From the NCBI GenBank assembly GCA_021791535.1, contig JAJYWI010000010.1:1-41506 (forward strand): a stretch of 41,506 bases of DNA, written 5' to 3'. The stretch is from Microcaldota archaeon. Its GTDB lineage: Archaea > Micrarchaeota > Micrarchaeia > Micrarchaeales > Micrarchaeaceae. Position numbers and translations under genes: made by a program. Shown piece by piece: positions 7,799 to 39,526 of this stretch (position 1 is the stretch's first letter; each line of letters opens with the position of its first letter). The notes below the pieces were generated by a model. The model made no database searches, had not been told where the DNA came from, and saw only the letters and a list, made by a program, of their open reading frames with translations.

Positions 7799-7871
7799 GG
7801 GGAGTTACGCTAACCTGGTAGACTTCCAGCTTTGGGAGCTGGACACCCGAGTTCAAATCTCGGACTCCCCA
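7799..7871 (+). tRNA. tRNA-Pro (anticodon TGG), boundary of an integration hotspot
   Basis: The acceptor stem GGGGAGT pairs perfectly with ACTCCCC and the discriminator is A; CCA is not encoded. The anticodon stem is CCAGC/GCTGG with loop TTTGGGA, giving anticodon TGG, and the T arm is CCGAG-TTCAAAT-CTCGG. The D stem is poor: position 10 is C and only one Watson-Crick pair plus a G-T pair can form. The 3' end (TCGGACTCCCCA) recurs at the end of four repeats in the following 4 kb, and the stop codon of the cytidine deaminase gene on the other strand lies inside the T loop. Confidence 0.85.
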
Positions 7872-8380
7872 CTCCTTTTCAGTGTCCTATATTTCGATAC
7901 ATCTATGCCTAGGTCAAGCGGTCCGAACGCACCCTGTAATAGCTCATGTACGCTTATGATTAGCACCTTTGTCTTCATTGTATTCGAGATTATTAGCTCT
8001 ATATCATTTCCAGATACCTGCGCAGCCTCGTATAGTGATTGCCTGCAATATCCGCATGATGGGGTGGGCACCTCCGTATCGAACGTTTCCCCACGGGCTA
8101 TTATCGCCATAGCCCAAAACTCTCTAACGCCCTGCGCGTATGCGTTTGCTATAGCCGTTGTTTCTCCGTGCTGGGTGTTCGTATAGTTTGCATTCTCTAT
8201 ATTGCAACCAGGGAACACCCGCCCGTCTTTAGCTAGAAGAGATGCCCCTACCCTAAAATGCGAGTAAGGGCTGTATGCAAGCTCCATATTTTTCTCTGCT
8301 GCATCAAGAACCATCCTCTGTTTGGGCGTCAGTTGTTCGTAAGTTACGTATCTTGTTGGAGTTGCCGTAGTATCTGACAT
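7853..8380 (-). CDS. Cytidine deaminase-family protein with variant zinc site
   Basis: 175-aa zinc-dependent deaminase of the cytidine/blasticidin deaminase superfamily, acting on free nucleosides or related compounds. It has YSHFRVGA, GCNIENANY, the catalytic HGE (His71-Gly-Glu73) and PSCGYCRQ with Cys109 and Cys112. In classical small cytidine deaminases the first ligand is Cys (CAE), so His is a variant. The start is ATG 8380, preceded by AGGTGA with a four-base spacer and a TATA-like AATAAATATTATG. The last six codons and stop lie antisense over the tRNA-Pro 3' end, so the gene arrived with, or was completed by, the integration junction. It is module 1 of the tRNA-Pro island. Confidence 0.85.
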   Translation of the reverse strand: MSDTTATPTRYVTYEQLTPKQRMVLDAAEKNMELAYSPYSHFRVGASLLAKDGRVFPGCNIENANYTNTQHGETTAIANAYAQGVREFWAMAIIARGETFDTEVPTPSCGYCRQSLYEAAQVSGNDIELIISNTMKTKVLIISVHELLQGAFGPLDLGIDVSKYRTLKRSGESEI

Positions 8381-8539
8381 CAAATCACCTAAGCTAAACT
8401 CATTCTGTTTTTCATAATATTTATTACTTATGATCGTCTTGCTGTGTTGAATAATTTCACTATTTCTCTAGGGTTTTAACCCTTGGGTCATATTAGTATG
8501 TTTCCTGTGCACAAAGAAGTGAATACGGGCATTTACTAT

Positions 8540-8590
8540 CATTCACTATAGAAAAATCAACGTCCCTCAGGCTTTAGTGTCGGACTCTCC
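8540..8590 (+). repeat. tRNA-Pro island repeat, copy 1
   Basis: About 50 bases: CACTATAG-AAAAATCAACG, then CCTCAGG, then GCTTTAGTG, then TCGGACTCTCCA. The last 12 bases match the 3' end of tRNA-Pro with one change. CACTA and TAGTG form an inverted pair around the centre. Read as an attachment-site (attR-like) scar. Confidence 0.75.
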
Positions 8591-8601
8591 ATTACCAGAT
8601 T

Positions 8602-8666
8602 TTGTCGTCGCGCGGCATTCCTATCAAAAAATCTTGTCGTCGAAAAATAACGCGAGTTCAAATCTC
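8602..8666 (+). repeat. Secondary att-like sequence with tRNA-Pro T-arm fragment
   Basis: Right after repeat 1, TTGTCGTCG occurs twice (8602-8610, 8634-8642), followed by AAAAATAACG and CGAGTTCAAATCTC (8653-8666). The last 14 bases are identical to the T arm of tRNA-Pro at 7848-7861. A related CTTGTCGTTG stretch follows repeat 3, and a TCGAAAGTATAACGCG stretch follows repeat 2, so the repeated unit extends beyond the 50-bp block. Confidence 0.5.
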
Positions 8667-8718
8667 CAACATTTCACTTTATTGGAGTGCAGATATTTTA
8701 TTGCAGGCTCTTGTATTC

Positions 8719-9006
8719 TTATGCATAGCCTTGCTGTGAATCGGAGCGAGGTGGAATGTAATGTTCGTATTTAACCTTGAGGTGATCCAACATTTCGATT
8801 TGCTCTTCATTCACAAGGGTAACACGCAGATTGCCGACTTTTCTCTGAGTTACCCTACCCAATTCTGCAGCAGCGTCAATTCCCCTTCTATTGTCTTCCT
8901 TAGTTCTGAATACAATCTTGTGGGTACTAACAAGATGCTGCTCCGCTCTCCTAGATGACGCCCCTCCTGTTTCCGGTCTTGTATGTTCCATAGTTATCAG
9001 GTCCAT
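8719..9006 (-). CDS. Hypothetical small protein (tRNA-Pro island, module 2)
   Basis: 95-aa hydrophilic protein, not recognised. The N-terminus is rich in Arg, Glu and Ser; the C-terminal half (GNLRVTLVNEEQIEMLDHLK) looks folded. The ATG at 9006 follows a GAGGTGTTAGA purine-rich leader. It is the last of up to three small minus-strand genes between island repeats 1 and 2, likely one transcript. Confidence 0.5.
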   Translation of the reverse strand: MDLITMEHTRPETGGASSRRAEQHLVSTHKIVFRTKEDNRRGIDAAAELGRVTQRKVGNLRVTLVNEEQIEMLDHLKVKYEHYIPPRSDSQQGYA

Positions 9007-9061
9007 TCTAACACCTCATCATACTTTCAAATACCTAAATCTTATCCCATATCTCAGTTAT

Positions 9062-9196
9062 TCAAGTTCTTATTTTGACAGGCTCATCTATGAATGTAAT
9101 CTCAGCCTGCTCAATCACTATAATGTCTTGCTCCATGCCGTGTTCTCTCGCGCGCATATACAATCCTCTCTTCAAATCCCTAAAAAACTCCACCAC
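9062..9196 (-). CDS. Possible small protein, start uncertain
   Basis: An open frame ends at TGA 9062-9064 with protein-like composition (REHGMEQDIIVIEQAEITFI). The frame stays open upstream to about 9255, and the extra residues (KHALYEIYAQR) also look coding, but the only usual starts are tandem GTGs at 9196 and 9193. A TATA-like ATAAATTATAAT lies near 9265. Either a GTG start is used or the 5' end is damaged. It lies between the two other small genes of module 2 on the same strand. Confidence 0.35.
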   Translation of the reverse strand: MVEFFRDLKRGLYMRAREHGMEQDIIVIEQAEITFIDEPVKIRT

Positions 9197-9391
9197 ACTC
9201 GTACTTCGCTGAGCGTAAATCTCGTAAAGTGCGTGCTTGTTGACTACGGTTTTCTTAGTAACGTAATTATAATTTATGCTTATTATACTACTACATTACT
9301 TACTACTGTATATACCTTCGAAAACTAGCCTTTGGGACAGCGTTTTTACTACAATACGCCTCTCAGGGACTACACATCGGTCTGGCGTGGT

Positions 9392-9694
9392 TTAGGTGTA
9401 GTCTGGACCTTTCTTAAAATCCTGAAGTACGCCTATATCATGTAAGAACTCAAGGTATACTTCCCGGTCGGCATCTGTTCCAATATTATTGTTTAGGCGG
9501 TAAGACGCGTCGGGGTAGATTTCAATTAGGGATCGACCGCCACCACAATCATCATCCTTCGGCTCCCATTGCGGATTTGGTCCCCACCCCGTTGGGGTTT
9601 TGACCAATGGACCTTCGCTTACTTTCCCTGCTTCCCCACGAGCTTGTATTTTTGGTGAAGTCTGCTCTTTTGGTGCTCTTGTAAGACTCGGCAT
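9392..9694 (-). CDS. Hypothetical small protein (tRNA-Pro island, module 2)
   Basis: 100-aa protein with a flexible Pro/Lys-rich N-terminal half (about residues 1-50) and an acidic C-terminal half containing SLIEIYPDASYRLNN and YLEFLHDIGVLQDF. Family not recognised. The ATG at 9694 follows GTGGTAAC. A TATA-like TTTAAATAT centred near 9726 is about 30 bases upstream, supporting real expression and making this the first gene of the small module-2 cluster. Confidence 0.5.
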   Translation of the reverse strand: MPSLTRAPKEQTSPKIQARGEAGKVSEGPLVKTPTGWGPNPQWEPKDDDCGGGRSLIEIYPDASYRLNNNIGTDADREVYLEFLHDIGVLQDFKKGPDYT

Positions 9695-9819
9695 GTTACC
9701 ACAATAGTGCTCACTTTGTCCACATATTTAAACACTCCTTTGGCCTAGTTCTATCGCCGCCTAGTGCAGGCTCACGAGAGGTAAGCTTGTCAACACAATC
9801 ATATACTATTAATAACCTG

Positions 9820-9869
9820 CATTTACTATCGAAAAATCAACGCCCTTAGGCTTTAGTGTCGGACTCCCC
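9820..9869 (+). repeat. tRNA-Pro island repeat, copy 2
   Basis: CATTTACTATCG-AAAAATCAACG, CCTTAGG, CTTTAGTG, TCGGACTCCCC. The final 11 bases are identical to the tRNA-Pro 3' end. One base shorter than copy 1 in the middle. It is followed by two further CATTTRSTATC motifs and a TCGAAAGTATAACGCG stretch up to 9926. Confidence 0.75.
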
Positions 9870-9941
9870 GCATGATAGCATTTAGTATCGTTTGATAACA
9901 TTTGCTATCGAAAGTATAACGCGCGCGGGGTTCCAACAGAT

Positions 9942-10829
9942 TTATGTTGCGTATCTCTTGCATGTCTTCTCGTAGCTTCTGAAAAACCAAGAAATAAATA
10001 TCGAATCCGTTTTCTTCGTCTGCGCCCTTTCTAATGCGTTGTAATAGCCTTTTCTATTGGTGTAGGGTATGTTTAGCATAGGATAACCGTACTTATGCAG
10101 TGTAAAGTTCATCAGGAGCCTCGAAATGCGGCCGTTTCCATCGGAAAACGGATGTATCGTTACAAACTTTAGGTGTACCAAAGCGGCTAACTCTATAGGG
10201 TTAATTTTGTTCTTATTCCTATTGTACCACTTAAAGAAGTCAGCGAGTTCTGCCGAAACTTCGGAAGGCGGTGGAGGTATAAACTTACTTCCTGCTATCC
10301 AAACTTGTCTTGTCCTAATCTTCCCAGCTATGTCCGCTTTCGTATCCTTGAAGAGTCTGTAATGCCATTCCAGTACCATCTGGAGACTCAAATCCTTCTT
10401 TGAATCAAGCATTTCATAGAAGAGTTTGGAATGTGACTCTGCCTCATGGACATCTCCGCTAGGCTTATTCGCGGGGGTTATGCCGTGCTGGAGCAGATTC
10501 GCCGTTTCCCTTAGGTTTAGCGTTGACCCCTCTATCCTCTGTGTGTCATACGTGAACTTTATAACAAACTGCTCGAGCTCCTTCTCTCTCTCTGAAGGTT
10601 TTGCAGATGCCAGATCTCTCTCATAGCCAGCCTTTATCTTATTGAATAGGGCATACCATTTTTGATTATATACTTCGAATAGGAAATCTTCCTTTACTTC
10701 ATTTATATTTTTAGGGATCTGTTTCCCAAGATAAAGCTCCTTTTTTACGACCTTGCCGCCAAGCCTGAACGAGTGCTCAAGATAGTAGTAAGTATTTTCA
10801 CCTATCTTTCTTTGCCTTATTTCTACCAT
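9942..10829 (-). CDS. Fic-domain protein (AMP-transferase family), class II inhibitory motif
   Basis: About 295-aa Fic protein. The catalytic motif HPFSDGNGRISR (226-237) is complete, so transfer of AMP or a related nucleotide group to a protein hydroxyl is expected. An N-terminal TQRIEG (96-101) fits the inhibitory (S/T)xxxE(G/N) helix, so the enzyme is probably autoinhibited without a separate antitoxin. The N-terminal ~90 residues resemble the Fic/DOC N-terminal domain. The frame opens at 10892, but the ATG at 10829 lies about 26 bases after the TATATATAAAT box, so a leaderless start there is preferred. A perfect 11-bp inverted repeat brackets the promoter. Module 3 of the tRNA-Pro island; target unknown. 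Confidence 0.9.
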   Translation of the reverse strand: MVEIRQRKIGENTYYYLEHSFRLGGKVVKKELYLGKQIPKNINEVKEDFLFEVYNQKWYALFNKIKAGYERDLASAKPSEREKELEQFVIKFTYDTQRIEGSTLNLRETANLLQHGITPANKPSGDVHEAESHSKLFYEMLDSKKDLSLQMVLEWHYRLFKDTKADIAGKIRTRQVWIAGSKFIPPPPSEVSAELADFFKWYNRNKNKINPIELAALVHLKFVTIHPFSDGNGRISRLLMNFTLHKYGYPMLNIPYTNRKGYYNALERAQTKKTDSIFISWFFRSYEKTCKRYAT

Positions 10830-10838
10830 AGTGGTATT

Positions 10839-10889
10839 TACCCCTACACATTTATATATATTCGCTATGTCTAGTAAAGTGTAGGGGTA
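10839..10889. promoter_or_regulatory. Fic promoter inside a perfect inverted repeat
   Basis: TACCCCTACAC (10839-10849) and GTGTAGGGGTA (10879-10889) are exact reverse complements. The Fic TATA box (TATATATAAAT on the minus strand) lies between them. The geometry suggests a looped or two-site operator controlling the Fic gene. Confidence 0.6.
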
Positions 10890-10928
10890 CATTATCGAGC
10901 TGCATGCTATCTAATAGTGTTTACCCCC

Positions 10929-10977
10929 ATTCACTATCGAAAAATCAACGCCCCCTAGGCTTTAGTGACGGACTTCC
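10929..10977 (+). repeat. tRNA-Pro island repeat, copy 3
   Basis: CATTCACTATCG-AAAAATCAACG, CCTAGG, CTTTAGTG, then ACGGACTTCC, a diverged version of the tRNA-Pro 3' end. CACTA/TAGTG form the outer inverted pair. It is followed by CTTGTCGTTG as in copy 1. Confidence 0.7.
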
Positions 10978-11393
10978 AATTTTGCTCTTGTCGTTGTAAA
11001 GTAATGTGTTCAGAGTTACAGAAATAGAAGGTTTTTGACTCGTTTTTGCCATACTTAAGCCACCTTGCTCGGTTTATTACTACAAATGAAAGGCTTATAC
11101 GGGGTATGTGTTTAGATTTTAGTGGCAAGGAGATTATGGGCGATATAATTACCGTGCTTCCCTGTCCCACAACCACGGTTTAATATCCTTCTAAGTTCCT
11201 TTGCTCTGAAGACCTGTTTGACTTTTGGGTAATTTTTGGATGGAAGATAAGCACCTTTATAATAACCGCTTCCACGCCAGGGCTCATTTTTTTGTTTCTG
11301 TGGATTTTTGTTGTTTCATTTATTAAGTTTTATACAAAACATTTATATAATATTTAACTTAGTCTTAACAAGAAATTACTTAAAGGTGAATAA
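10978..11393. other. Gene-poor stretch between repeat 3 and the Nudix gene
   Basis: No convincing gene. A 73-codon minus-strand frame (10955-11176) has a FYFCNSEH segment that faintly recalls a zinc-finger tail, but it reads through repeat 3 and is probably a decayed or chance frame. The right end holds a TATA-like TTTATATAAT (11341-11350) for the Nudix gene. Confidence 0.5.
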
Positions 11394-11831
11394 TTGAAAG
11401 AGAAAAATAGGATTGGCCTTGGAGTTTTTGTATGTGTCTTTAACAAGGATCTTTCTAAGATAATGCTGATAAGGAGGAATACAGAGAAAAGGAAAAAATG
11501 GAAAGCCGACTGGGGAAATGTCGGAGGTAAGATAGAATTCGGCGAAACATCAGTGGATGCATGCATTAGAGAGGTAAGAGAAGAGACGGGATTAAAATTA
11601 AAGCGCTCCAATCTTACCTTGATACATATCAAAGAAACGCCATATCTCCTTCCATACCTCCACGCGGTGCATTTTGTCTACGTTACCTCTATCAATGAAA
11701 GCTCCAAGATTGTGCTGAATGCCGAGTCTGAGAGCTATAAGTGGTTCAAGATAGGAGCATTACCTCAAAAGACCCTAGATAAGAAAAAGGATATTATCGC
11801 GTGGTGGAGAGAAGCCAAGCAAAAGATTTGA
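11394..11831 (+). CDS. Nudix hydrolase
   Basis: 145-aa Nudix pyrophosphohydrolase that would cleave nucleoside diphosphates linked to another moiety. The Nudix box is complete: Gly45, Glu51, Arg59-Glu60-Val61, Glu63-Glu64 and Gly66-Leu67, with LIRRNTEKRKKWKADWGNVG before it. Substrate cannot be told from sequence. The start is TTG 11394, supported by GGTGA with a four-base spacer and a TATA box about 45 bases upstream. It is module 4 of the tRNA-Pro island and the only island gene on the plus strand. AT-richer than the housekeeping genes nearby. Confidence 0.9.
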   Translation: MKEKNRIGLGVFVCVFNKDLSKIMLIRRNTEKRKKWKADWGNVGGKIEFGETSVDACIREVREETGLKLKRSNLTLIHIKETPYLLPYLHAVHFVYVTSINESSKIVLNAESESYKWFKIGALPQKTLDKKKDIIAWWREAKQKI

Positions 11832-11956
11832 CAGCTCAAGAGCCTTTGAAGGGATAGTTGGTGGAAAGCTCTTTTTAGGGTACTTGAAAAGAGAATATGT
11901 GAAAATTAATGAAAATTAGCATAGAGAAATCGAAAGTGATAAGGTATATGTACTTG

Positions 11957-12011
11957 CGTTGATTTACCTTAGAAAAATCAACGTCCCTCAGGCTTTAGTG
12001 CCGGCCTCCCC
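11957..12011 (+). repeat. tRNA-Pro island repeat, copy 4, with extra hairpin
   Basis: GAAAAATCAACG, CCTCAGG, CTTTAGTG, then CCGGCCTCCCCA, a diverged tRNA-Pro 3' end. Unlike the others it carries CGTTGATTT (11957-11965), which pairs exactly with AAATCAACG (11975-11983). This is the distal end of the island. Confidence 0.7.
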
Positions 12012-12087
12012 AATGAACTTAATGGCCGAGCATTGTGCATAGAACAGCAGGCTGGCTATGCATTAAGATTGTGCTTTGAAGGTCGAA

Positions 12088-12444
12088 TCATCTACGAAGT
12101 GATTCTTCTGGTGCTACAAACAGAAGCGGAACTGCTCTTTTCAAGGCCTTCATTATAATCTTTTTTTGCTCGTTGGTTACTTTTGTATGCCCAAAAGCTG
12201 CAAACCCTAATCCGTATGTAAGTTCCAAATTCTTCGCACCAATGAGGTCCGCACCCCTAAGATCCGCCTCCCTAAGGTCCGCACCCCTAAGGTTCGCACC
12301 CCCAAGGTCCACACCACCAAGGTCCGCCCCCCGCTCAAACACTACGCCCGAAAAGTCGCGCCTTCCTCCATCATACAATTTTTTGAATGTCCTTGTGCTC
12401 ATCGGCTTTTGAGCTGTCCCTTCTGTTATAGTAATTGGCTTCAT
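12088..12444 (-). CDS. Pentapeptide-repeat protein (short)
   Basis: 118-aa protein with about eight pentapeptide A(D/N)LxG units around residues 30-70 (FSGVVFERGADLGGVDLGG and on), predicted to form a short right-handed beta helix. The flanks are a Lys-rich N-terminus and a C-terminal helix. Pentapeptide proteins have varied roles, and eight units is short for a DNA-mimic type, so no function is assigned. The ATG at 12444 lies about 30 bases after a TATA-like CATATAAATATC. It lies just outside repeat 4, so it may be chromosomal or belong to an older insertion. Confidence 0.75.
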   Translation of the reverse strand: MKPITITEGTAQKPMSTRTFKKLYDGGRRDFSGVVFERGADLGGVDLGGANLRGADLREADLRGADLIGAKNLELTYGLGFAAFGHTKVTNEQKKIIMKALKRAVPLLFVAPEESLRR

Positions 12445-12867
12445 ACCGTCACACTAACCTACCGATTTACGAGATATTTATATGTTCGTTTTTTGTGCAA
12501 AATGCTAATGCGAAATTGTCATTTTGCAGCCCTGCCGAAAGTAAAGTAGATACCAACAGCCAAAGCTCCATTCCGGGTGATGCTCCTAGGTTCCCGTTGG
12601 GTTTGCCCTGATAAAAATGGAAGAAGAAAACCAGCGACTTACAGATTTCAAGTGCCTAAATCGCAAAAGCGCTTTAAGGATCCCAAAACTTTCCGCTCAG
12701 GGAACTTAATTTTATAGCTTTCTTTACTTGAGTTTAGGATAAGATTTATTCACTGCTTACCTTACCTGACTTTCTTCTTCACATACGGTATGGTAAGGCA
12801 GATATATATGCCTTTGCTATTGCCCGGGTTTGGGACAAAACCCTGCTACTTCTTTTGCCTGTCGTGT
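12445..12867. other. Intergenic stretch without a supported gene
   Basis: No coding frame I trust. It contains GCAAAATG (12497-12504) paired with CATTTTGC (12520-12527), a possible hairpin just upstream of the pentapeptide promoter. The rest has no recognisable repeat or RNA. Confidence 0.5.
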
Positions 12868-13392
12868 TCAGCCCTTGCCGAACTCGGCCAGCTTCCTCCA
12901 CCACCTCACCCTTTTCTCTATCTTGTAGTCGAGAGAGTACCTGCTCGGCCCTCCCATCGCGTTCACAGCTATGAGGAGCAGGAACACAATCGCGTATATT
13001 ATGCCAGTGCCTATATCGGTTGAGCTCGGCCCGTACGGGCCGCCGAATCCCTCTGGCACGCTCCATATCAGCAGGCTGTAGAAGAAGCCACCGATGTAGC
13101 CGACCTTCCTCATGATCCCGAATATCAGCGAGATGGCTAGGGCGAGCTCTATGATGGCTATAGCATATGCCCAGAATGCTGGATTAGATGATGTCACGGA
13201 TATCCAGAAGCTGAACCATCCTGAGAGCCATTGCGGCTGGCCGGCAGCCCCGCTGGCTATCAGCGAGGAAAAGCTCCTCAGGAAGCCGTTCTGCAGCTTG
13301 AAATACGCATCGATCAGCCAGACTAGCCCGAACGCTATGCGCAATGCACCCTTGATCGGCGCTATGTTGCGCGCCACAAAGCCCTTTGGCAT
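12868..13392 (-). CDS. DoxX-like membrane protein
   Basis: 174-aa integral membrane protein with about four hydrophobic helices: APIKGALRIAFGLVWLIDAY, then around SNPAFWAYAIAIIELALAIS, then KVGYIGGFFYSLLIWSVPEG, then IGTGIIYAIVFLLLIAVNAM. The first helix with its R...W..DA..K pattern and the overall layout match the DoxX/DoxD superfamily, whose members are small membrane partners in quinone-linked redox chemistry; the exact role is open. The frame opens at 13479, but ATG 13392 lies about 25 bases after TATA-like TTTATAAAG and avoids overlap with the divergent ABC gene. Confidence 0.75.
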   Translation of the reverse strand: MPKGFVARNIAPIKGALRIAFGLVWLIDAYFKLQNGFLRSFSSLIASGAAGQPQWLSGWFSFWISVTSSNPAFWAYAIAIIELALAISLIFGIMRKVGYIGGFFYSLLIWSVPEGFGGPYGPSSTDIGTGIIYAIVFLLLIAVNAMGGPSRYSLDYKIEKRVRWWRKLAEFGKG

Positions 13393-13449
13393 ATTTCCAT
13401 CTGTCAATGAAGCTTTATAAAATATCCGACAAAACTCTATACTGTTTGT

Positions 13450-13868
13450 ATGCCGGGTCATATAATAGAAGTTAGCCACGTCTCTAAAAGGTTCAAGACA
13501 TATGAGACGAAGTCAGGCAGCGGCTTCTTCGCCACTCTCAGGAGGAGGTACTACATGAAGGCCGCGCTTGCCGATGTCAGCTTCTCGATAAAGGAAGGCG
13601 AGATAGTCGCCCTGCTGGGGCTCAACGGCAGCGGTAAGTCCACTCTCGTCAAGATAATAATAGGGATACTCTATCCCGACGAGGGCAGCTCGCGTTCACG
13701 CTGCTCTTCCCGATAGGCCTCGCGTACTACTATCCATCCACTGTGCTGCTCGGCGAGGTCTCCCTCGGAGCGTTTGCTGCCGTGGCAGGCCTCTCGGTGC
13801 TTATGATGGTGCTTAGCTACAGCGCGTGCAATCGCCTCGTGAAAAAGTACACCAGCGGTGGAGGCTGA
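13450..13868 (+). pseudogene. Collapsed ABC exporter: ATPase N-terminus joined to permease C-terminus
   Basis: Bases 13450-13692 encode the start of an ABC ATPase ([19 protein letters not shown] onward) with a good Walker [10 protein letters not shown], ending after GILYPDEGS. It has no Q-loop, signature or Walker B. From 13695, in another frame, 57 codons encode [20 protein letters not shown] to NRLVKKYTSGGG, the typical C-terminal end of an ABC-2 permease of the multidrug/daunorubicin exporter type. The simplest history is one internal deletion that removed most of the ATPase and permease genes. The remaining 88-aa product should be inactive. The junction is near 13690-13694. Confidence 0.8.
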
Positions 13869-13872
13869 GCGC

Positions 13873-15057
13873 TTATGGCGCCTGCCCGGCTGCTATCCTT
13901 ATGTTTTTCCTGTAGAACCTACCGAACATGCCCTCTATGTTGGCCCTCGCTGCCTCCTTAGCCTTTTCTATCCTTGCAAGCTCATCCTTCAGCTCGCTTG
14001 CTGCTGTCACCTTCCTCATCTTCTCCCCCTCGATCCTCTCTACATCGCGGATCGCCCTCTCTAGCTCAGATGCCTCCTGCAATGCAGCTTTCCTTTTGCT
14101 CCTCAGTATCCCTATCTCTTCAATGAACCGCGGAAGGTCCTCGTTGATTACGAAATCGGCTGCCTGCAGCACCTCCCCGGTATTCTTCACCGCTATCCTG
14201 TTCTCCTGCACCTCTTTCTTGAGCGATATCACGTGCTTCGTGAACTCGCGCACTCCATCCTCCTTTCCAGAGAGCGCGTTCACCGGGTCCTCAAGATAGT
14301 ATGTCAGGTGCATCTTTGACGTAGCCCCGTGTTCGTACTTCCTTGCTGGCTTCTCAAGCGGGGCAAGCCTAGACGCTATGGTGCTCCTTGCATCTGATAT
14401 TGCTCGGTCGATGTTTGATATCTCAACCAATTTAGCTGACAGGCTCTCCCTGAGCGGCCCTGCTGAATCTGTGCTCCCCGCTTTTGCAGTGCTGGCCTCA
14501 GCATCTACCTCCTTCACCGCCCTTTCCAGCTCCTCAAGCTCCCTGGTGAAGGCTGCGAACCTCTCTATCTCCTGCAGCAGCGTGTCGTACTCCTTCAGCT
14601 CCGCCCCCTTAGTCTCAAGCCTAATGCCTAGCTCCTTCACAGCCCTTTCCATTGCGCTGTAGGCGCTCCTGAACCTGCCAAGCTCGTTGGCGTAAGCTTC
14701 GAGCACTATCCTGAACTTGTTGTTCACCTTCAGTATCTCGTCCATCAGCGTCCTCGCTGCGACGAGCTTCGAGTGGTACGAGGTGTAAAGGTTGCTCTCG
14801 TCCAACGGCCTTTCCGCGCCTATGAGCCTGCGGAGCGAGGATGTGTACACCGACTTCTGCTCCACCACGTAGCTCTCGCTTGCTGCGCGTATGCTCTCCC
14901 TGTCTGGCGGCGCGTTGCTTTTGTCAAAGCGGTCGCATGCCCCCGCAAGCATTGACTTAGCCTGCTCTATGCTCAGGATAAGCCCAGAGGCCTTTGAGTT
15001 GATCGATGATAGCTTCTCATCGAAGGCGCTGTTGAGCAGTCCCTCTAACTCCTGCAT
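13873..15057 (-). CDS. Long coiled-coil protein of unknown function
   Basis: About 394 aa, highly charged, no membrane segment. Long heptad-rich helices run through most of it (for example ELEELERAVKEVDAEAS and LERAIRDVERIEGEKMRKV), with a central non-coil insert around KMHLTYYLEDPVNALSGK. It looks like a structural or SMC-like scaffold without ATPase domains. The frame opens with GTG at 15090, but ATG 15057 has GGAGGT just upstream and is preferred. The stop is four bases from the end of the convergent ABC remnant. Confidence 0.7.
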   Translation of the reverse strand: MQELEGLLNSAFDEKLSSINSKASGLILSIEQAKSMLAGACDRFDKSNAPPDRESIRAASESYVVEQKSVYTSSLRRLIGAERPLDESNLYTSYHSKLVAARTLMDEILKVNNKFRIVLEAYANELGRFRSAYSAMERAVKELGIRLETKGAELKEYDTLLQEIERFAAFTRELEELERAVKEVDAEASTAKAGSTDSAGPLRESLSAKLVEISNIDRAISDARSTIASRLAPLEKPARKYEHGATSKMHLTYYLEDPVNALSGKEDGVREFTKHVISLKKEVQENRIAVKNTGEVLQAADFVINEDLPRFIEEIGILRSKRKAALQEASELERAIRDVERIEGEKMRKVTAASELKDELARIEKAKEAARANIEGMFGRFYRKNIRIAAGQAP

Positions 15058-15216
15058 CCTGACCTCCTTCTCTCCACTGTTGAAAAGCACTCCCCCACCA
15101 GTGTAATACCATACGCTCTAAAGGAATAAATTGCTAACTAGTCCGTTTTATGCCACTTACCAAATAGTATTTATATCTCCTCATCTCGATTCTATTACGA
15201 CAAGGGTGCGCTATAG

Positions 15217-39383: not shown

Positions 39384-39457
39384 GCGATCGTAGTCTAGCC
39401 TGGTTAGGACTTTGCCCCTCCAAGGCAAAGACCCGGGTTCAAATCCCGGCAATCGCA
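39384..39457 (+). tRNA. tRNA-Gly (anticodon TCC)
   Basis: GCGATCG pairs with CAATCGC with one C-A mismatch at the sixth pair; the discriminator is A. The D stem is GTCT/GGAC. The anticodon stem TTGCC/GGCAA with loop CCTCCAA gives TCC, but position 33 is C instead of the near-universal T. The T arm is CCGGG-TTCAAAT-CCCGG. The sequence continues CC after A73. The flanks also allow a longer GTGCGAT/ATCGCAC pairing. Confidence 0.9.
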
Positions 39458-39526
39458 CCTTGCTGTTGGAAAACCGCGCCCGCAAAGGTATTTATATTAG
39501 GTTTAATCGATAATCCATGTGTGTAA

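Follow-up and report, generated by a model that had tools for sequence, protein, structure and literature searches.

We have analysed a 41,506-nt window from contig JAJYWI010000010.1 (assembly GCA_021791535.1) of a Microcaldota archaeon, in which the gene for tRNA-Pro(TGG) is followed by an island of four small modules, each ending in a version of the 3' end of that tRNA. With a probability of about 0.8, we read this island as a series of accreted, non-autonomous elements that lack an integrase, carry one gene or a small group of genes, and are related to a family of tRNA-targeting integrases. The ladder of tRNA ends, the shared arms, their fixed spacing, the homology of arms across tRNAs and genera, the varied cargo and the recombinase family beside the same motif can all be read from the DNA. 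The genome of this archaeon (handle G000) consists of draft contigs adding up to 741 kb, and other genomes are referred to by their handles (G001, G004, G010 etc.). An RFC small subunit of archaeal type and numerous introns in tRNA genes mark the host as archaeal. We use O for the duplicated core of the tRNA end, P arm for the sequence upstream of an O copy, P' arm for the one downstream, and rung for a module.

The last 12 to 13 bases of tRNA-Pro (7859 or 7860 to 7871, corresponding to tRNA positions 61-73) make up O, and the 12 terminal bases of the gene read TCGGACTCCCCA (7860-7871). Four direct repeats of about 50 nt lie 3' of the tRNA (8540-8591, 9820-9870, 10928-10979 and 11961-12012), where an earlier note on this DNA had placed them. 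Each ends in a version of O with one to three mismatches (11/12, 11/12, 9/12 and 10/12 matches for copies 1 to 4); apparent additional copies with three or four mismatches were left out of the counts. Random 12-mers of the window reach at least 9/12 matches at about 4 in 10,000 positions, and the column consensus across the four copies is the exact tRNA-Pro sequence. The intervals, given in the earlier note as about 0.7, 1.3, 1.1 and 1.0 kb, measure 720, 1279, 1109 and 1033 bp (modules A-D), and their contents are also as described there: a cytidine deaminase in A, two or three small orphan genes in B, a Fic gene in C and a Nudix gene in D. That note mentions neither the further, degenerate arms at 8602/8634, 9880-9924 and 10988 nor the T-arm-like piece at 8652-8664. 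The features, in order, are:

7799-7871, plus strand: tRNA-Pro(TGG), putative integration platform (attB), predicted by ARAGORN (which gives the end as 7872); adjoins the RFC small-subunit gene throughout the genus.
7872-8591: module A, 720 bp, with the cytidine deaminase gene (7853-8383 as called, minus strand).
8540-8579, plus strand: P arm 1 (CATTCACTATAGAAAAATCAACG...CTTTAGTG), GAAA at 8551, 41 nt to the O end.
8580-8591, plus strand: O copy 1 (TCGGACTCTCCA), 11/12 to the tRNA end.
8592-8704, plus strand: P' arm of module B; contains two TTGTCGTCG boxes (8602, 8634) and, at 8652-8664, T-arm-like GAGTTCAAATCTC; homologous to the arms after tRNA-Glu in G004 and G010.
8592-9870: module B, 1279 bp, with small orphan ORFs at 8719-9006, 9062-9196 and 9392-9694 (minus strand).
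9820-9858, plus strand: P arm 2 (CATTTACTATCGAAAAATCAACG...); about 40 nt upstream of it are also common to the C6 site (see below).
9859-9870, plus strand: O copy 2 (TCGGACTCCCCG), 11/12, directly after the arm of this copy, CATTTACTATCGAAAAATCAACGCCCTTAGGCTTTAGTG.
9871-9924, plus strand: second type of P' arm (GATAGCATTTAGTATC..TTTGATAACATTTGCTATCGAAA), resembling sequence 3' of tRNA-Ala-type sites.
9871-10979: module C, 1109 bp, with the Fic-domain gene at 9942-10892 (minus strand).
10928-10967, plus strand: P arm 3, GAAA at 10939, 41 nt to the O end.
10968-10979, plus strand: O copy 3 (ACGGACTTCCAA), 9/12.
10980-11010, plus strand: degenerate P' arm of module D (TTGTCGTTG at 10988).
10980-12012: module D, 1033 bp, with the Nudix hydrolase gene at 11394-11831 (plus strand).
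11961-12000, plus strand: P arm 4, GAAA at 11972, 41 nt to the O end.
12001-12012, plus strand: O copy 4 (CCGGCCTCCCCA), 10/12, distal end of the ladder.
12013-13872: further variable DNA, with a pentapeptide-repeat gene (12088-12444) and a DoxX-like gene (12868-13479), ending before 13873-15090, the first gene common with the sister genome G001.

The upstream arm serves more than one tRNA in this genome. The block, searched as AAATCAACG-N4-12-CTTTAGTG, matched four times in the whole genome, always within the island (control 0), and was absent elsewhere among the 164 genomes of the order. With the 20-letter block pattern, GTDB contigs gave four bacterial matches, about the number expected by chance, and viral contigs (IMG/VR) none. 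Searching the own genome for GCATTTACTATCGAAA led to two contigs with additional sites, C21 and C6. On C21, 1.2 kb 3' of tRNA-Ala(GGC), the site marks the end of a module whose only gene encodes a HemK-like methyltransferase, and its last bases, CCCGCCAAGTCCA, match the end of this tRNA at 13/13 positions. The C6 site (C6:9335) terminates in TCCGCAGAGCCCA, with 11/13 matches to the end of tRNA-Ala(TGC), a tRNA whose contig (C13) stops 1.5 kb 3' of it. According to the earlier note, repeats away from tRNA-Pro with unrelated flanks would have spoken against insertion at the tRNA; the further copies that do exist carry the 3' end of another tRNA, by which the idea is strengthened. A degenerate second tRNA-Ala(TGC) with an altered T arm, close to the start of another contig (L092 132-204, G000:C8), may be a displaced copy from an element at tRNA-Ala(TGC).

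From the GAAA of the arm TATCGAAA (AAAA at C6) to the end of O there are 41 nt at five of the six sites and 40 at copy 2, and in a tRNA-Glu module of G004 TATCGAAA likewise stands 41 nt from the O end. Between arm and core, the bases vary with the target tRNA while the arm itself is constant. This is what an enzyme recognising both an arm-type and a core site would give, and a transposon end does not fit it. This bears on casposon-like transposition, by which a Cas1-type integrase would insert at tRNA 3' ends and duplicate a 14-15-bp target. Casposons target the 3' end of tRNA-Pro, require TCAAATC in the T arm and leave 14-15-bp duplications, and those of Family 2 share with the island the target and a similar length of duplicated tRNA end (PMC6614799). 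Cas1 is nevertheless found in none of the nine genomes of the genus, nor in G010, there are no terminal inverted repeats (the left and right ends are unlike by inspection), and the variation of some 15 nt beside O with the tRNA target, together with the conservation of the arm 41 nt away, is as for a site-specific recombinase, all of which makes a casposon-like origin highly improbable.

Single-gene modules between recurring sites are also what would be expected of an archaeal integron cassette array, that is, a cluster of attC sites lacking the integron integrase (CALIN), with the blocks as attC sites. CALINs exist in archaea and are likewise arrays of small accessory genes with one recombination site per gene and the recombinase elsewhere (PMC9668308), and the recombinase family described below matches a model named 'XerA/integron integrase', below its cut-off. 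Three of the four blocks, however, fold like their shuffles (plus strand, z 0.58, -0.59 and -0.27), and the fourth (-2.54) forms a different hairpin; the sites terminate in bases of the adjacent tRNA and differ from tRNA to tRNA; cargo lies on both strands; and the recombinase reaches 30.8 bits with the IntI model (TIGR02249), whose cut-off is 265. Lacking the attC fold and IntI, and having a tRNA platform and double-arm att sites with a tRNA end, the island is most unlikely to be a CALIN. The repeat as an attC-like or folded RNA element was rejected by the same folding against shuffles. The hairpin of the fourth block is strong (11957-11983, CGTTGATTT...AAATCAACG, z -2.5) and occurs there alone because the left flank has an inverted copy of the ATCAACG of the arm.

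Downstream arms, by comparison, cross genus boundaries. A variant of the sequence 3' of copy 1, TTACCAGATTTTGTCGTCG, immediately follows tRNA-Ala(GGC) in the own genome, and window positions 8592-8704 align over about 90 nt with the DNA directly 3' of tRNA-Glu in G004 (same genus; z 16.2 against shuffles) and at two loci of G010 (another genus; z 9.6 and 11.7). An nhmmer model of these four arms, which gives E 8e-26 for the window copy that it includes, independently finds the DNA 3' of tRNA-Pro in G010 (E = 1.4e-6) and also matches, weakly, that 3' of tRNA-Ala of the own genome (E 0.019). What lies behind the homologous arms differs: orphan ORFs in the window, an ATPase-like gene with an Asp/Glu racemase in G004 and Fic in G010. 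A T arm followed by the motif (GTTCRANTC-N12-36-TTGTCGTCG) occurs at 28 places in 23 of 162 genomes, belonging to 14 genera (0 in the reversed-pattern control). At 23 of these places TTGTCGTCG starts 7-11 nt past the tRNA end, and a GTTCR-type mimic of the T arm is then present at 12 of the 28, against a background of 6%.

Nine of the 22 motif-bearing tRNAs have a same-strand copy of positions 61-73 at 0.2-3.5 kb downstream; these are 10 copies, against 0.9 expected from shuffled cores, and there is no copy on the opposite strand. For tRNAs without the motif the figure is 8 of 81 (nine copies, two opposite, 2.6 expected), and the tRNA-Pro and tRNA-Ala of the window's genome are among these. 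The modules found in this manner carry a VapBC pair at tRNA-Asp (0.72 kb, own genome), PIN-domain genes, Fic or a radical-SAM gene. The VapBC of tRNA-Asp in G155 is 88% identical and stands in a longer unit. Alternatively, VapBC at this tRNA may be an old inheritance. Longer copies of the 3' part of tRNA-Asn, tRNA-Lys and tRNA-Asp are present in the own genome 0.7-1.5 kb downstream of each (L076 142-1613 and 6911-8398; L077 6677-7393), enclosing PIN-domain, unknown and VapBC genes. At tRNA-Pro of G141 and G143 (L058, L059), integrase-bearing elements of 8-9 kb have a 60-nt duplication of the tRNA, as compared with the 13-nt core of the small modules.

The tRNA-Glu of G010 has a one-gene Fic module of 1.3 kb whose product is 75% identical in amino acids to that of the window, and about 925 nt of gene plus promoter are common to both (71% in nucleotides). 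The two genes have opposite orientations relative to their tRNAs and their att flanks are not common, which suggests that cargo switches frames as well as tRNAs. An inverted repeat, TACCCCTACAC ... GTGTAGGGGTA (10836-10892), surrounds the Fic promoter in the window, also precedes the Fic of the G010 module, and is likely an operator travelling with the gene. Right behind that module, after a P'-like CGACGACAG, lies a second and more distant Fic (L214 1511-2389, 35% identity), probably another rung.

Further ladders were found at tRNA-Pro of G004 and at tRNA-Val of G113 and G163. In that of G004 the tRNA end occurs three times and the arm is another one (ACAACATCTATTTTACGGGAGA), 91% identical between the two distal rungs and confined to them. 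These ladders are relevant to another explanation, in which homologous recombination duplicated a single arm-plus-O segment in tandem and genes entered later by some other route; the match to the tRNA would then go back to one ancient insertion only. The four Pro blocks are indeed closer to each other (78-93% identity over 27 nt) than to the arms at tRNA-Ala. We consider this course of events improbable: the modules have no related DNA between their blocks, their P' sides are unlike, and tRNA-Pro of G004 and tRNA-Val of G113 have independent ladders built with other arms.

The neighbourhood of tRNA-Pro is unlike in every sister species examined, and the RFC small-subunit gene stays next to the tRNA across the genus. 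In G001, tRNA-Pro is followed by a short-chain dehydrogenase-like gene and, after about 1.7 kb, by the gene found at 13873-15090 of the window; behind this tRNA, G005 has an apparent restriction-modification cluster and G006 other genes (names for these three genomes come from translations read by eye, with no family search). Within the genus, this locus is a hotspot. Together with the one-gene module at tRNA-Ala(GGC) and the P' arms after tRNA-Glu elsewhere, these variable neighbourhoods bear out the proposal of that note: all comparisons favour serial site-specific insertion at the tRNA 3' end by elements with a common attP arm.

A candidate for the enzyme came from tRNA-Val of G144, where a 2-kb module encodes a tyrosine recombinase. 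Its family (about 300 aa) occurs in 102 of 162 genomes and reaches 12 copies in a genome; many copies are broken, and the catalytic residues are kept in the alignment. Among 49 copies with flanks, 29 are no more than 500 nt from a tRNA 3' end, mostly at 77-130 nt and on the same strand; some loci overlap, which makes the counts partly dependent on each other. The tRNAs ahead are Glu, Val, Ser, Gln, Lys, Trp, Pro and Arg, and many of these loci have CGACGACAA or TTGTCGTCG about 8-14 nt past the tRNA. The top curated match is the archaeal XerA of NCBIfam (NF040815) with 68.9 bits, far under the cut-off of 220; multicopy, tRNA-adjacent and often broken, the family points to a mobile-element enzyme, not a single dimer-resolution enzyme. 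A pattern-limited search of viral contigs gave no match to it. The earlier note had thought of a tyrosine recombinase or an SSV-type integrase; the former is likely, as a XerA-like family with a fragment in the own genome, and the latter was rejected, as the 413-aa integrase at tRNA-His (C4) is of another group and its flank is without arms. That integrase gene is intact and directly follows tRNA-His (L052 7798-9177, G000:C4), on a contig that ends before the far att site.

Shared arms, P' homology across genera and recombinases beside the motif lead us to read the modules as non-autonomous relatives of this integrase family, and their derivation from integrase elements is plausible. They resemble tRNA-gene tyrosine-recombinase elements in being flanked by direct repeats of the tRNA 3' end, both in the window and behind additional tRNAs, and in shared attP arms (P at three kinds of site in the own genome, P' across genera), and differ in that the cognate recombinase, present in relatives such as that at tRNA-Val of G144, is missing from the window modules. 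As already remarked in the earlier note, no module of the window contains an integrase, and searches with hidden Markov models and tblastn at full sensitivity found no remnant of one either.

The main rival is that every rung was once a larger element that integrated by means of its own integrase and was later reduced to one useful gene, with no movement in trans. Archaeal elements without an integrase are usually explained by its loss once they have integrated (PMC8371274), the order has many broken integrase copies, and the O copies of the window have one to three mismatches. In bacteria, tandem accretion of integrative and conjugative elements (ICEs) or integrative and mobilizable elements (IMEs) at a gene 3' end is known, as are integrase-less cis-mobilizable elements (CIMEs), which are defined as decayed ICEs or IMEs; cargo-bearing CIMEs measure 1.2-13 kb and are found beside ICEs or IMEs (PMC7563491). 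Like CIMEs, the modules are integrase-less units without recombination or conjugation genes that retain att sites and are stacked behind one target gene (by Pfam, no conjugation gene appeared among the proteins tested near the island). Unlike them, they are only 0.7-1.5 kb long, with one gene or a small group, stand four in a row without an integrase-bearing member, and have arms that serve several tRNAs. Eight modules examined at full sensitivity yielded no integrase remnant, the modules are compact with arms at fixed spacing, and one-gene modules recur between genera (Fic at tRNA-Glu, for example). Moreover, module B retains about 110 nt of P' arm, and as relatives with an integrase hold the gene beside the tRNA, its loss would usually remove the P' side too. 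Decay in place is a serious possibility, which we put clearly below even odds.

Archaeal precedents exist for tandem insertion, integrase loss and short att sites; the tyrosine-recombinase elements of Thaumarchaeota and other archaea are defined by their integrase, with sizes of 2.6-98 kb and a median att of 17 bp (PMC6563490, PMC8371274). The thaumarchaeal cryptic integrated elements share with the modules the archaeal host, the tRNA 3' end, the short att and tandem insertion; the modules are smaller and integrase-less, whereas the smallest element listed there has 2.6 kb and an integrase. Within the open-access literature we found no account of single-gene units below 1.5 kb arrayed in this way, nor of the arm family.

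The mechanism that we propose would be as follows. Each element would carry a single gene or a small group of genes, bounded by a P' arm on one side and a P arm on the other, and a 12-13-nt core O. The integrase would recombine the tRNA 3' end (attB) with a circular module (P-O-P'). Insertion would restore the tRNA, and the displaced O, with the incoming P arm ahead of it, would mark the distal end. Repeated use of one tRNA would stack the modules, the newest adjoining the tRNA, with a recombinase of the XerA-like family acting in trans. We infer this enzyme in trans (also an idea of the earlier note), the circular intermediate, the order of insertion and any benefit of the cargo from the arrangement of the DNA. 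The compactness, the fixed spacing and the lack of remnants speak for modules moving as such, short of proof. More tentatively, with odds that we place a little under even, tRNA genes throughout the order could be docking sites for a pool of one-gene cassettes with att arms only, moved in trans by the multicopy recombinases as a functional counterpart of integrons.

Several observations weigh against insertion of mobile modules. P arms are kept within one genome and mostly not between genomes; a search of 162 genomes gave, outside the own genome, contexts that on inspection look like chance and are mostly intragenic. The first module is without a recognisable P' motif, and other sequences follow copies 2 and 4. 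Of the recombinase of the own genome, only a C-terminal fragment of 91 aa is known, cut off where contig C10 ends (51% over 91 aa). No module has been seen as a circle, no pair of strains with and without one given module was found, the data are contigs of a draft genome, and loss of the integrase from larger integrated elements would leave a nearly identical picture.

Elsewhere in this genome, two tRNA-Gly(TCC) genes were noticed (window 39384-39459 and L086 9624-9699), that of the window with a mismatched acceptor stem (GCGATCG/CAATCGC).

Taken together, these observations suggest that these archaea gather spare genes singly at tRNA genes. Genomes near 0.7 Mb need a way of gaining genes without large mobile elements, and a scheme of cassettes at tRNAs would supply one; it would also explain why toxin-antitoxin, Fic, Nudix and methyltransferase genes stand singly behind tRNAs. 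Defined sequences (the arms, the recombinase family and the 13-nt core) make movement in trans directly testable, and the approach through arms and O copies reveals modules that integrase-based searches for genomic islands would miss.

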